Below are positions 11,638 through 46,772 of a DNA stretch of 64,000 nucleotides, piece by piece. Position 1 is the stretch's first letter. Every line of letters starts with the position of its first letter. The notes under the pieces were generated by a model. That model made no database searches, had not been told where the DNA came from, and saw only the letters and a list, made by a program, of their open reading frames with translations. Origin of the DNA: an uncultured Clostridia bacterium (GTDB lineage Bacteria > Bacillota > Clostridia > Christensenellales > Borkfalkiaceae). The stretch lies in contig CANRIK010000006.1 of NCBI GenBank assembly GCA_947630705.1, forward strand, positions 1 to 64,000, in the 5' to 3' direction. Made by a program: the position numbers and the translations under genes.

Positions 11638-14241
11638 TCACGCCTCGCGTTTCCAATAATAAATTTTATAAGTCGATTTTAAATAAGTTGCGTTTTCAGT
11701 AGGAGTGTCTACCGTTATGCTTTGCGCATCAGACATATCACTGTTCATGGCAACTTTCCAGCCAACAGTATTCTCAAAAGTTACGCTTGTAAGGCTCGTG
11801 CAACCATTGAACGCATAACTACCGATAGAGGTAACGCTGTTGGGTATAGTTATGCTTACAAGGCTTGTGCAATAATTGAACGCACTATTTGCAATTCCCT
11901 TTGTGTCCGACCTTAAATTTACGGAAATTACATAATTACAATCTATAACCCATTTGTCAACATAATGTACGCCGTCTTGATTTTGTATCAATTTTGTGCA
12001 ACCATAGAACGCTTTCCCACCAATATAAGTCACACTGTCGGGTATGGTTATGCTTTCAAGGCTTGTACAGCCGTAGAACGCTTCCCCACCAATAGAAGTT
12101 ACGCTGTTGGGTATGGTTATATTTGTAAGGCTTGTGCAAACATAGAACGCACCCATACCAATAGAAGTCACACTGTCGGGTATGGTTATGCTTTCAAGGC
12201 TTGTACAGCCGTAGAACGCTTCCCAATCAATAGAAGTCACACTGTCGGGTATGGTTATGCTTTTAAGGCTTGTACAATTATAGAACGCCTTGTCGCCGAT
12301 AGTTTCAAGTTTGGAATTATTTCCGAAATTTACGCTTGCAAGGCCTTTACAACCATTGAACGCTTCCTTACCAATAGAAGTCACACTGTCGGGTATGGTT
12401 ATGCTTTTAAGGCTTGTACAATCATTGAACGCACCCTCGCCGATAGAAGTAACACTGTCTGGGATAGTAATTCTTTCAAGATCTGAGTAATTATCAAATG
12501 CTTTCTCACCTATTGCCTTTACTTCAATAGGAAGGTCAACATTTTTAAGACCTGATATACCACGATAATTTGAATACCAAACTCCGTTGGCATTTATTTC
12601 ACCTATTTTAACAAAATTAAATGTTGCCTTACAGGTATTATTAAATTTATCCTTCCAACTTATAGTGCTGCCTTCGATTTTTGAAGATTCGATTGTAAGA
12701 TAGGCTCTGCAAAATGTTTCGTTCGTATAATATGCACTGTAATAGAGTGAACCATCATAATTTATTGGCTTTTTTTCTTCTTGTCCACCGGTGAAGTCTG
12801 AATAATACATTACCTCGTCCAAAGACAGTTCAACTCTCTCAACCTCTTTTGCGGCCGTAGCGTTGTTATCGCTATCGCAACGGTCTTTTTCAAAATATAC
12901 GCTTGAAACTACATAATCGTTTTGTTCGTTTTTCTCGAATTCGACCTCTATATAATCGTATGTAACTGTATTTAGCTGTTCTTTGAGTTTTTCTTCTTCG
13001 TTGGCGAGCTGTAAAAGTCTGCTTTCATCGCCGTTTGCAAATGCATTTTCCTGCTCTGTGTTATTTTTTTCTATTTTATCGAGGATAGAGGAATATTCGC
13101 CGCTGTAATATTGCCACTTTGCGTCATCTTTCGAAGTTTCGTTCGGGTCGCCCAAAATTTCAGTAACCTGTTTCTGCGTATATCCGAGTTGTATATTTCC
13201 TACCACCCAAAGGCGAAACTTATTTGTAAAAATCGGGACGAGAACGCTTATCAGAATTATAGCAACCAACAAAATTGGCGTAACAGTCAAAATAACCGCT
13301 TTATGCATATCAAACCAGATTATTGCTTCGGGCGTGGACTTTTCTATTGCCTTGTCATAGTTGCGCTTTTCGTGTTTATAGACGATTACGGCTTTTATAT
13401 TTTTTCCATCGACGGGAGCGACAGGCTCGGAATGAGTGGCATAGAATTGCTCTTTACGCAATCTTTCGGATTCGAAATATTGCTCTTTTTTCCGTTCTTC
13501 CGCCTCTTTCAGTTCGGGGGATTGTTTTGCAAGCAAATATCTTGCTACAATCGAGCCTGCCGAAGCGGCGGCAAAAATAATCGAAAATACAATTAGAAGT
13601 ATGGGACACGCGCCCGAAGCCAGAATGCCCATGCCTTCGTCGGCGGAAGAGATTATACATATAATTGCAATTCCGATAATAAATATTAGTAGATAAAATA
13701 TATAGGAAATATATTCGAAGAGCGTAGGCAAATACATGCGGAATTTGCCTATTTTTATTTCCCTGTATTTCAAGTCGGACTTAAACTGAATTACCGCGCT
13801 GACGCATGCATAAACAACGCAGACTGACGCAAATATAATCAAAGCAAGCATAGAGCCTTCGATTTCGGGCACTTCGCTTAACAGTCCTGTGTACATTCCA
13901 TATACATTGCCCAGATTTTGGTTCGGGAGCCCCATACCCAGAATTATTTCGGCAACGGGAGCCGAGTAAAAGACAAATAGCAGTACGGAAAAGAGCGCAA
14001 ACGCAACAAACGGTACAAACTTTAAAATCGAGTATACTTTTTGCTTGACATTGATTTGTGAGTTATTGCTGTCTTTTTCCGGCTGTTCAAAAAAGGCATA
14101 GCCGCATTCGGTGCAAAACCGCGCCGAGCCGGAGTTTTTTGCTCCGCACTTCGGACATGTTCTTTCTTCTTCCCATTTTTCTCCGCAATTCGGGCAGAAC
14201 TTGCCGTCAAATTCCGTTCCGCACTTTGGACACTTGTTCAT
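11638..14241 (-). CDS. Zinc-ribbon, membrane-anchored BspA-like leucine-rich-repeat protein
   Basis: 867-aa protein; the ATG at 14241 has GGAGG 7 bp upstream, so the ORF start at 14304 is rejected. Two zinc ribbons come first (CPKCG...CPNCG, residues 4-19; CPKCG...CTECG, ~29-46), then four membrane segments (~68-270), a fifth near residue 330, a short region resembling the BamE/SmpA fold (QLGYTQKQVTEILGDPNE), and finally about ten BspA-type repeats of the ITIPDSVTSIGxxAFxxCTSL kind. The zinc ribbons face the cytoplasm; the repeats should be outside. No LPxTG or other wall anchor. Function unknown; LRR_5 proteins often bind proteins at the surface. Its mRNA leader is unusual. Confidence 0.85.
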   Translation of the reverse strand: MNKCPKCGTEFDGKFCPNCGEKWEEERTCPKCGAKNSGSARFCTECGYAFFEQPEKDSNNSQINVKQKVYSILKFVPFVAFALFSVLLFVFYSAPVAEIILGMGLPNQNLGNVYGMYTGLLSEVPEIEGSMLALIIFASVCVVYACVSAVIQFKSDLKYREIKIGKFRMYLPTLFEYISYIFYLLIFIIGIAIICIISSADEGMGILASGACPILLIVFSIIFAAASAGSIVARYLLAKQSPELKEAEERKKEQYFESERLRKEQFYATHSEPVAPVDGKNIKAVIVYKHEKRNYDKAIEKSTPEAIIWFDMHKAVILTVTPILLVAIILISVLVPIFTNKFRLWVVGNIQLGYTQKQVTEILGDPNETSKDDAKWQYYSGEYSSILDKIEKNNTEQENAFANGDESRLLQLANEEEKLKEQLNTVTYDYIEVEFEKNEQNDYVVSSVYFEKDRCDSDNNATAAKEVERVELSLDEVMYYSDFTGGQEEKKPINYDGSLYYSAYYTNETFCRAYLTIESSKIEGSTISWKDKFNNTCKATFNFVKIGEINANGVWYSNYRGISGLKNVDLPIEVKAIGEKAFDNYSDLERITIPDSVTSIGEGAFNDCTSLKSITIPDSVTSIGKEAFNGCKGLASVNFGNNSKLETIGDKAFYNCTSLKSITIPDSVTSIDWEAFYGCTSLESITIPDSVTSIGMGAFYVCTSLTNITIPNSVTSIGGEAFYGCTSLESITIPDSVTYIGGKAFYGCTKLIQNQDGVHYVDKWVIDCNYVISVNLRSDTKGIANSAFNYCTSLVSITIPNSVTSIGSYAFNGCTSLTSVTFENTVGWKVAMNSDMSDAQSITVDTPTENATYLKSTYKIYYWKREA
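11780..12490 (-). repeat. Tandem 69-bp coding repeats of the LRR domain
   Basis: The 23-residue unit is repeated with near-identical DNA in several copies, for example the recurring GTCACACTGTCGGGTATGG on the plus strand. Such identity suggests recent duplication or gene conversion and makes copy number likely to vary between strains and to be misassembled. Confidence 0.8.
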
Positions 14242-14273
14242 AAAAATTCCTCCGTAAGATCCTTTTGTGCGGT

Positions 14274-14463
14274 AAAAAAATAAGGTGTGCTCCCGAAAGA
14301 GCACACCGCACGGTATCTCTTACGGTCACCACACCAATTGCAACTTATAAGCACGTAAAAACGCTGTTAATAAAGTCACGCAGAGATACACACTGCCGTG
14401 TTCATCGTGACAATTATTAACATAATTAAAAAAGCTATACTCTGAAAAGAGCATAAAAATAGC
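14274..14463 (-). promoter_or_regulatory. Candidate attenuator/riboswitch leader of the LRR gene
   Basis: Reading on the minus strand, the transcript first meets a terminator-like hairpin (14434-14463, AUGCUC/GAGUAU core, then T6). Next is a domain closed by CACGG/CCGTG and GTATCTCT/AGAGATAC (14309-14320 with 14382-14400). Directly after comes a perfect 9-bp stem GGTGTGCTC/GAGCACACC (14284-14307) followed by TTATTTTTTT, about 30 nt before the Shine-Dalgarno. The sequence GGTGTGG upstream of the terminator could compete for its CACACC half, giving an antiterminator. No known riboswitch class was recognised. Confidence 0.55.
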
Positions 14464-14499
14464 GTGCCTTTTATTCAGTTGCAATTATGTGGTAACTAA

Positions 14500-14528
14500 A
14501 ATATAGCACTATAATATTAAAAAGTCAA
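14500..14528 (-). promoter_or_regulatory. SigA-type promoter of the LRR gene
   Basis: On the minus strand TTGACT, 17-bp spacer, TATATT. The start site near 14493 gives a leader of about 250 nt. Confidence 0.7.
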
Positions 14529-14609: not shown

Positions 14610-14629
14610 GTCATAGTTTAAACTATGAC
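14610..14629. promoter_or_regulatory. Perfect 20-bp palindrome over the feoA start codon
   Basis: GTCATAGTTTAAACTATGAC is its own reverse complement and includes the ATG of feoA. A metal-dependent repressor of the Fur or DtxR/MntR type is a natural candidate, but the sequence does not match a consensus I know. As RNA it could also hide the start codon in a hairpin. Confidence 0.55.
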
Positions 14630-14846
14630 TGTTTTTGATTTAAAGAAAGGGGACGCGGCGAGGATAACGTCGGTAAACGCCGTGGGGTCGGAGGGCGCCC
14701 GACTCGCCGCGCTGGGCTTGATAGAGGGAGCCGTCATTCGCGTTATAGCCTTTTCGCTCTTCAAGAGCGCGCAGTTGGTGGCTCTCGGCCCCGTGCGGCT
14801 CTCCATGCGCGCAACGCTTGCAAAGCGGATAGAGGTAAAATTATGA
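14625..14846 (+). CDS. feoA: Ferrous iron transport protein A
   Basis: 73-aa SH3-like cytoplasmic protein that works with FeoB in Fe2+ uptake. The start MTVFDLKKGDAARIT and the segment LAALGLIEGAVIRV match the family, and the size is normal. No Shine-Dalgarno sequence precedes the ATG, which lies inside a perfect palindrome. The gene overlaps feoB by the sequence ATGA, so the two should be translationally coupled. Confidence 0.9.
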   Translation: MTVFDLKKGDAARITSVNAVGSEGARLAALGLIEGAVIRVIAFSLFKSAQLVALGPVRLSMRATLAKRIEVKL

Positions 14847-16483
14847 AAGTAGTGCTTGCCGGAACTCCCAACGCCGGGAAAACCACCCTTTTCAACGCGC
14901 TCACTCACAGCAGTCTGCGGACAGGCAACTTTCACGGCGTAACCACTTCGCCGGCGAGCAAGACGGTGAAGGGAATAACTTATGTGGACGTGCCGGGCGC
15001 ATACAATTTCGCCCCTTATTCCATGGAAGAAAAGAGCGCCGTGGACGAAATCAAATCCGCCGACATAATAGTCAACGTCGTGGACAGCCTTACCCTTTCG
15101 GGGAGCGTGAATTTCACAAAAAATCTAATTCTTTTAAATAAGCGCACGGCGGTGTATCTCACAAAGACCTCTCAACTTAAAAAGCGGAAGGGCAGAGTGG
15201 ACATAGATAGACTTTCCGCCTATTTGGGCGCGCCCGTATACGACTGTTCCCCCAAAAGGCTTAAAAGAGCCATTTCGGAGGGGATAAATTTCAACGTCGC
15301 AAAGGACAGCTCCGTCTCTTTTTCGGATACATACGACGGCGGAAACTCCAACCCGACCAAAGCCGATAGGCTCTTTTGCAACAATCTCTTTTCAATATTG
15401 TTTTTTGTCCTTTCGATAACGGCAATGTTCTTTCTGGCATTTCATCCGTCCATGCCGGGCGCCGTGTTGAAAGATTTGACGGAGGAACTCATCTGCGAAA
15501 AGCTGTGTAACGCCGTCACTGCCGGCATGCGGCACGCGCCTACCATATGTTTTTTGAAGGAGGCTGTTTTCGGAGGCATAGGCGGAGTGCTTTCCTTTAT
15601 ACCGCAATTAACAATATTATATCTCGTATTGACTTTACTCGACGAGAGCGGAGTAATGTCGGCTCTCTCGTTCACCACCGACGGCTTGTTTGAAAAAGTG
15701 CGGCTCTCCGGCAGAGCGGCGTTTTCGCTCGTCTCCGGCTTCGGCTGTACCGCGGCGGCTATTCTCACCACTCGCGGCTATTCTTCGCCCGACGCGCAAA
15801 AGAGAACGGTGGCCGTACTGCCGTTTATACCTTGCGGCGCGAAGATGCCGGTGTTTCTGACCTTTCTTTCGCCGCTCTTCGAAAATCCTTTCCCCGTTAT
15901 TACCTGCTTCTATTTCGGCGGAATAGTAGTCGCTCTTGCGGCTTCGGCGATAATAAGGGGCGGAGGAGAGAGTCTGCTGTCGGAAGTCGCGCCGATTGGG
16001 ATTCCTTCGCTCAAAACGGTCGCAATTAAGTTGTATTTTTATCTGAAAGGGTTTATAATCAAAGTGACGGGCACGGTCGCGCTCTTTTGCGTGATTTCGT
16101 GGTTCCTTTCGCATTTTTCGTTCGGATTTCAATATTCTGCGCCCGAAGCCAGCATGCTTGCCTCGATTTCGAGGGCGATTTTGCCGCTGTTTGTCCCCAT
16201 GGGCGTGACCGATTGGAGAATAGCATACGCGGCAATCTGCGGTTTTATCGCCAAGGAGAACATAGCCGCAACCGTGGCATTGCTGTGTCCGACGGGCACG
16301 GGATTGACGCTGTCGGCAAGTTTGGGAGTCTGTACGTTCGTGCTCCTTTGTCCGGCGTGCGTGTCGGCGTTTTCGGCCTCCGTAAAGGAAGTGGGTATGA
16401 AATTCACCTTGAAATGCTTTGTATGCCAGCTTGCGCTCGCGTTTGCCGGCGGATATCTTGTAAATTTTATCTTTTTGCTATGA
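14843..16483 (+). CDS. feoB: Ferrous iron transporter B, compact form with altered G4 motif
   Basis: 546-aa membrane GTPase that imports Fe2+; many relatives have 600-770 residues. The G domain shows G1 (GTPNAGKTT, residues ~7-15), G3 (DVPGAYNF) and a switch region, but the G4 position usually reading NxxD is LTKTSQ, so normal guanine recognition seems lost. The Gate-like segments GFGCTAAAILTTR and LPFIPCGAKMPVF are recognisable, with the usual CNVPA changed to CTAAA. The late GFIAKENI motif is kept. About eight membrane helices follow residue 190. Overlaps feoA and the next gene by ATGA. Iron transport is likely; strict GTP dependence is less sure. Confidence 0.88.
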   Translation: MKVVLAGTPNAGKTTLFNALTHSSLRTGNFHGVTTSPASKTVKGITYVDVPGAYNFAPYSMEEKSAVDEIKSADIIVNVVDSLTLSGSVNFTKNLILLNKRTAVYLTKTSQLKKRKGRVDIDRLSAYLGAPVYDCSPKRLKRAISEGINFNVAKDSSVSFSDTYDGGNSNPTKADRLFCNNLFSILFFVLSITAMFFLAFHPSMPGAVLKDLTEELICEKLCNAVTAGMRHAPTICFLKEAVFGGIGGVLSFIPQLTILYLVLTLLDESGVMSALSFTTDGLFEKVRLSGRAAFSLVSGFGCTAAAILTTRGYSSPDAQKRTVAVLPFIPCGAKMPVFLTFLSPLFENPFPVITCFYFGGIVVALAASAIIRGGGESLLSEVAPIGIPSLKTVAIKLYFYLKGFIIKVTGTVALFCVISWFLSHFSFGFQYSAPEASMLASISRAILPLFVPMGVTDWRIAYAAICGFIAKENIAATVALLCPTGTGLTLSASLGVCTFVLLCPACVSAFSASVKEVGMKFTLKCFVCQLALAFAGGYLVNFIFLL

Positions 16484-46483: not shown

Positions 46484-46772
46484 AATAAATGAATAAAAGC
46501 CGTGCAAAGATAGCACGCAAACAAAGGCTATGACGAAGAGAAGTACCGCGTAAGTTCGCTTACAGAGAGCGGCGCATGCTGGAAAAGCCGCAGAATGAAA
46601 ACGCGCGAATAACACTTCCGAGCCGCAACCCGAAAAGGTTAAAACCGCAGTAGGGCGCGCCGAAAAGTCCGCGTAAGGGACAGATAAAGTGATTGCTTTA
46701 TTTTCAGCAATAATTTAGGTGGCACCACGGAATGTTTCCGTCCTGAAAAATATTTTCGGGACGGTTTTTTTT
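46484..46772 (+). promoter_or_regulatory. T-box riboswitch, asparagine specifier
   Basis: Stem I parts (GAGAGC, GCTGGAAAAGCC), the T-box core TTAGGTGGCACCACGG (46715-46730) and a 12-bp terminator stem CCGTCCTGAAAA / TTTTCGGGACGG with T8 are clear. In the specifier loop (GCGCGAATAACACTTCC) the triplet AAC (46611-46613), followed by the usual purine, codes for Asn. GAA (Glu) lies just upstream at 46607. The UGGC bulge would pair with a G discriminator base, as in tRNA(Asn), tRNA(Asp) and tRNA(Glu). An Asn-sensing T-box makes sense before the genes that make Asn-tRNA. Confidence 0.92.

Follow-up and report, generated by a model that had tools for sequence, protein, structure and literature searches.

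We found that the leader of a surface-protein gene in the window, the whole 64,000-nt stretch of DNA analyzed here, belongs to a large RNA family that has no Rfam entry and occurs in about a quarter of the sampled Clostridia genomes. The family seems to act at the very start of the message, choosing between termination and continued transcription. Its window copy is likely a cis-acting transcription attenuator with riboswitch architecture, in which strand exchange between a pseudoknot and an antiterminator would control the surface-protein gene. Judged from sequence, the family is probably a new class of riboswitch-like attenuators that keep their genes off when a signal is bound, an RNA switch tied to surface proteins that probably serve uncultured gut Clostridia in contacts with their host and neighbors.

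The initial annotation had proposed a possibly new riboswitch or attenuator that matched no known one, to be checked by an Rfam search and by covariance analysis across homologous leaders, with conservation beyond the window's genome set beforehand as a test. That proposal holds: relatives were found in the genus, the order, and the class, the Rfam search returned no matching family at the leader, and covariance supports the closing helix P1, the pseudoknot, the terminator, and the antiterminator, among them structures that exclude each other.

Promoter and P1-closed domain

The strong promoter noted initially was borne out as a sigma-70-type element on the minus strand (Table 1). In all 91 family members tested, the -10 box ends 0-8 nt upstream of P1, exactly 6 nt upstream in 81 of them, and a -35 box is also present in 86, compared with 18 of 451 control positions that have both boxes. 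This placement of the -10 box just before P1 therefore makes the start of P1 very probably the transcription start, predicted at 14493 in the window copy. The genus members read have a common layout, running from the promoter through ACCACATT, a variable helix arm, AATA, a variable domain, and GGCATTGTGTATCTCT to the complementary arm, GGTGTGGTAACCGTAAGAGATACC, the terminator, a ribosome site, and the ATG. On the plus strand (window 14625-16483), genes for FeoA-like (73 aa) and FeoB-like (546 aa) proteins run divergently and start about 100-130 bp from the leader promoter.

The whole leader has a fold z of -7.4 against shuffled sequences. A 92-nt segment had been taken as the folding unit, but on its own it reaches a z of only -1.25 against shuffles, and the true domain spans about 165 nt and is closed by P1. 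In the genus, 9 of 16 P1 pairs carry compensatory changes (alignment A1, 30 members), far above shuffled and slid controls; across the order, all seven pairs of the P1 core do so and are 99.5% paired (A3, 32 sequences, with slid controls compared); and in the class, 8 of 11 pairs do so. The class-type alignment (A5) has compensatory change in 21 of its 35 pairs. In a MAFFT alignment that is too poor for reliable P2 counts, the P2 helix is 39-57% paired. The GGCA(U) loop is kept in genus and order, and two unpaired motifs, AATA after P1 and the GG[CU]A loop, are conserved in the family.

Two terminators in series had also been described. The strong one just before the gene stands, but the upstream one is a weak optional hairpin that the terminator scan did not report and that compact members such as G000:C18 lack, which leaves one terminator, not two. 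The optional insert of long-type members (TATTTTTATGCC..TTTT), to which this hairpin belongs, looks like the 5' half of the core hairpin in class-type members (GTATTTTTATGCCTTTGG), so that a second domain may survive as a remnant in long-type leaders.

Table 1. Elements of the window copy and its controlled gene, in order of transcription
Feature	Position	Strand	Remark
Promoter: -35 TTGACT, 17-nt spacer, -10 TATATT, extended TG (TGn)	14528-14500	-	sigma-70-type
Leader before zinc-ribbon gene	14493-14267	-	one family copy
Helix P1, 5' strand (ACCACA-TA-ATTGCAACT)	14477-14493	-	compensatory changes
Optional inserted hairpin	14434-14463	-	weak, -7.8 kcal/mol; long-type members only
Inner stem (TTAATAA/TTATTAA) around GGCA loop motif and pseudoknot 5' strand	14367-14420	-	sequence and fold
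Pseudoknot 5' strand GTATCTCT	14389-14382	-	compensatory changes in relatives
Helix P1, 3' strand (AGTTGCAAT-TGG-TGTGGT)	14328-14345	-	compensatory changes
Switch strand CCGTAAGAGATAC, just 3' of P1	14313-14325	-	covariation
Switch strand, 5' part CCGTAAGAG	14325-14317	-	pairs with terminator (antiterminator)
Switch strand, 3' part AGAGATAC	14320-14313	-	pairs with domain (pseudoknot)
Intrinsic terminator hairpin	14307-14284	-	terminator scan; -16.8 kcal/mol
Antiterminator 3' strand CTCTTTCGG, inside terminator hairpin	14301-14293	-	
U-tract of terminator (T-rich)	14274-14283	-	
CCGCAC	14267-14272	-	can pair with GTGCGG (14311-14306) around terminator after read-through
Controlled gene: 867-aa zinc-ribbon, transmembrane, BspA-type leucine-rich-repeat protein	11638-14241	-	starts at 14241

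Pseudoknot, terminator, and antiterminator

Two regions are complementary to the switch segment CCGTAAGAGATAC: one lies in the enclosed domain, the other comprises the 5' arm of the terminator together with its loop. The terminator 5' arm is in effect a copy of the domain strand GTATCTCT. Pseudoknot and antiterminator are mutually exclusive because both uses of the switch strand overlap at AGAG. In the proposed mechanism, the RNA would start at 14493 and fold into the P1-closed domain, which would present a hairpin with a GGCA-type loop and the GTATCTCT strand. In one state, the 3' half of the switch segment, extended in relatives, would form the pseudoknot with the domain, leaving the terminator free, so that the message would end before the gene. 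In the other state, the switch segment would form an antiterminator, up to 13 bp long, with the terminator 5' arm and loop, which would allow transcription of the surface-protein gene. We infer that this switching takes place in cells and that a non-protein signal (a small molecule or second messenger) stabilizes the pseudoknot, making the element an OFF switch.

The two domain helices named initially fared differently: GTATCTCT/AGAGATAC is real, conserved, and covarying in relatives, whereas CACGG/CCGTG is not the conserved pairing. The pseudoknot GTATCTCT/AGAGATAC is almost invariant among the 30 genus members, where 98.8% of its cells pair; its support there therefore comes from relatives. 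Across the order (A3), four of its eight pairs show compensatory change, judged against slid controls. Class-type members have a longer pseudoknot, e.g., AAAAATGCAT/ATGCGTTTTT, and its extension scores 16.1 versus 12.95 (sd 0.49). The class-type members also combine a UUUUU arm, an AAAAA loop, and a downstream UUUUU (e.g., L134, L145, and L252), and we would guess that a U-A-U triple helix could stabilize the pseudoknot there.

Compensatory pairs in the terminator number 6 of 9 in the genus (A1) and 8 of 10 across the order (A3), above controls. On A3, the antiterminator has 13 pairs that are 90% paired, 7 of them with compensatory change, and in an alignment-free comparison of 90 members it scores 20.1 with its own partner versus 13.6 with swapped partners (sd 0.34). 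It reaches up to 13 consecutive pairs in relatives, e.g., CAATCGGAGATAC/GTGTTTCCGGTTG in L090, and follows changes in the terminator loop, as in CCTTTAAGAG/CTTTTAAGGG (G006:C19) and CAAATTTGG/CCAAATTTG (L114). In the class-type alignment, its columns are just 66% paired, which we put down to misalignment of the loop. A further helix, GTGCGG/CCGCAC, is 78-83% paired with compensatory change in four of six pairs; it is limited to the window's genus and some relatives and absent in the class type.

That structures at the terminator exclude each other had been anticipated correctly, and these structures covary, but the competing strand is CCGTAAGAGATAC, just 3' of P1, and not the GGTGTGG copy named at the time. 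The GGTGTGG/CACACC pairing can form in 30 of 30 members, yet it shows one compensatory change and is weakly supported, with a small alignment-free excess (13.3 versus 12.5 for swapped partners, sd 0.16).

The antiterminator of the window copy, at about -12.7 kcal/mol, is less stable than its terminator (Table 1), and read-through would therefore need co-transcriptional kinetics. In many members, both states are comparably stable, as would suit a self-acting attenuator with no dedicated ligand, one driven by temperature, by Mg2+ or other ions, or by the speed of transcription. We regard such an attenuator as improbable, since the conservation of the unpaired AATA and GG[CU]A motifs exceeds what a thermometer or kinetic attenuator needs.

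Distribution and copies

Copies per genome reach at least seven or at least nine, and the window's genome carries at least seven (covariance model). Further genus members were first found by blastn, and the covariance model places the family in 47 of 93 genomes of the genus, with about half lacking detectable copies. A narrow model found it in 27 of 297 genomes of the order. In the class, it occurs in 79 of 391 genomes (R2) and in 78 of 291 genomes representing 49 of 180 genera (R3), with at least about 150 matches among those listed in the class sample alone and a best match of 147.8 bits (E 1.7e-27); E-values come from shortened calibrations, and the counts take related sequences as separate. 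Outside the class, none of about 300-400 sampled genomes had a match, and the phylum samples gave the window's own genome only. Of the 69 loci found with a DNA pattern, nearly all belong to assemblies of uncultured Clostridia, among them Candidatus Coproplasma and Candidatus Gallimonas, and none lies in a viral contig; two, in records that bear the names of other phyla, may have matched by chance.

Some copies stand in tandem (G622:C42:14970-15147 and 15183-15366; G394:C5:89988-90163 and 90197-90379). In L269 (G642:C11), the terminator of the first leader is directly followed by another promoter-like sequence with its own leader start (TTTGCGACATAG). Identical copies of leader and gene lie near two contig ends (G000:C2:3680-3846 and G000:C7:60851-61017), from either a recent long duplication or an assembly repeat.

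Within the window's genome, the 3' part of the leader recurs at 95-100% identity before other genes, and such near-identical 3' parts of copies within the genus could also reflect recent duplication. Several of them in one genome, together with P1 as a long terminal inverted repeat, are what a short mobile, MITE-like repeat carrying promoter and terminator would show. This origin is very unlikely: P1 varies by compensatory change, unlike a fixed repeat end, the element sits at a fixed distance from the promoter, and the queries used matched nothing in collections of viral, plasmid, and phage sequences.

A match on G043:C3 was rejected as chance. Matches on G020:C26 and G010:C205 were left out, the feature common with the family being the terminator-like end only. 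These two loci, L068 (G020:C26:6182-6215) and L069 (G010:C205:9553-9572), have a long closing helix (TGACAGCTCAAC/GTTGAGCTGTCA and CTATCCAAAAC/GTTTTGGATAG, respectively), a promoter just upstream, a terminator of the family's kind, and short helical-looking proteins downstream, and are possibly a different leader type.

Controlled genes, known switches, and candidate signals

In the protein encoded downstream of the window leader, Pfam identifies zinc ribbons (PF13248, PF13240, and PF12773), and the leucine-rich repeats were read from the translation. By a simple regular-expression test, 37 of 82 genes downstream of family members have lipoprotein signals versus 5 of 72 background genes, and other N-terminal hydrophobic segments occur in 21 of 82 versus 18 of 72. 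Pfam domains in 77 downstream genes include BspA-type LRR_5 in 16, DUF6273 in 7, and zinc ribbons in 4, with single SLH, MBG, Big_2, and GDSL lipase domains. In the class genome G608, the leader-bearing genes read encode mostly BspA-type repeat or other secreted proteins. The regulon thus consists mostly of lipoproteins, BspA leucine-rich-repeat proteins, and other surface proteins, with no common metabolic theme.

No Rfam 15 model matched above its gathering threshold at the window leader or at 40 homologous loci, a permissive search of the window and the homologous loci gave chance matches alone, and no description of the family was found in the literature searched, the partial coverage of which does not prove absence. 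As is characteristic of riboswitches, the family has a conserved structured leader in several lineages, a covarying domain, and, on sequence evidence, an expression platform exclusive with that domain, in which antiterminator and pseudoknot use one strand. Transcription-terminating riboswitches as a kind include, e.g., SAM-I, fluoride, guanidine-IV, and ZTP. The family resembles them in its leader position, its conserved folded domain with a pseudoknot, the strand common to the domain and the terminator/antiterminator, and its several copies per genome, some in tandem. Unlike Rfam riboswitches, it matches no model and its P1 begins at the transcription start, and unlike known riboswitches, it serves surface lipoproteins and repeat proteins rather than the enzymes or transporters of one pathway.

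Many copies with no metabolic theme in common, and long conserved helices such as a protein might grip, would equally suit an attenuator whose domain is held, and whose terminator is controlled, by an RNA-binding regulator in place of a small molecule. We consider this rather unlikely, given that the tight loop and pseudoknot motifs and the tandem copies are typical of, though not exclusive to, ligand-binding riboswitches, and that no regulator gene is regularly linked to the leaders among the genes read. An orphan switch that is present in many copies and governs genes of no single theme is often a sign of a signaling molecule. Tentatively, the family may be a new riboswitch class, present in many copies per genome, that senses an unrecognized signaling molecule and so selects the surface lipoproteins and BspA-type adhesin-like proteins that the cell displays, by way of a long pseudoknot/antiterminator strand exchange. 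The half of the genus without detectable copies offers a natural contrast for finding that molecule.

The c-di-GMP-I and -II riboswitches (RF01051 and RF01786) control surface and adhesion genes in Clostridia, and surface-gene control is common to them and the family; neither model matched at the leader or the homologous loci. As the family signal, c-di-GMP is unlikely, because the presence of the RNA does not go along with that of GGDEF proteins: GGDEF hits are missing from several nearly complete genomes that carry many copies, such as G104 (98% complete, at least seven copies) and G010 (93%, at least nine). The window's own genome has two, and the absence elsewhere counts against c-di-GMP for the family, not for each single genome.

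T-box leaders (RF00230) likewise choose between terminator and antiterminator in Clostridial leaders. This layout, and an ATG in the long insert, could fit leader-peptide or tRNA-sensing (T-box-like) attenuation, which is extremely unlikely here: the reading frame of the insert is broken in relatives such as G034:C1 and G014:C25, compact members lack the insert, and RF00230 has no match at the leader, downstream of which there is no aminoacylation or amino-acid gene. The sole match of that model in the window is an unrelated T-box leader on the plus strand (46521-46748, 111 bits).
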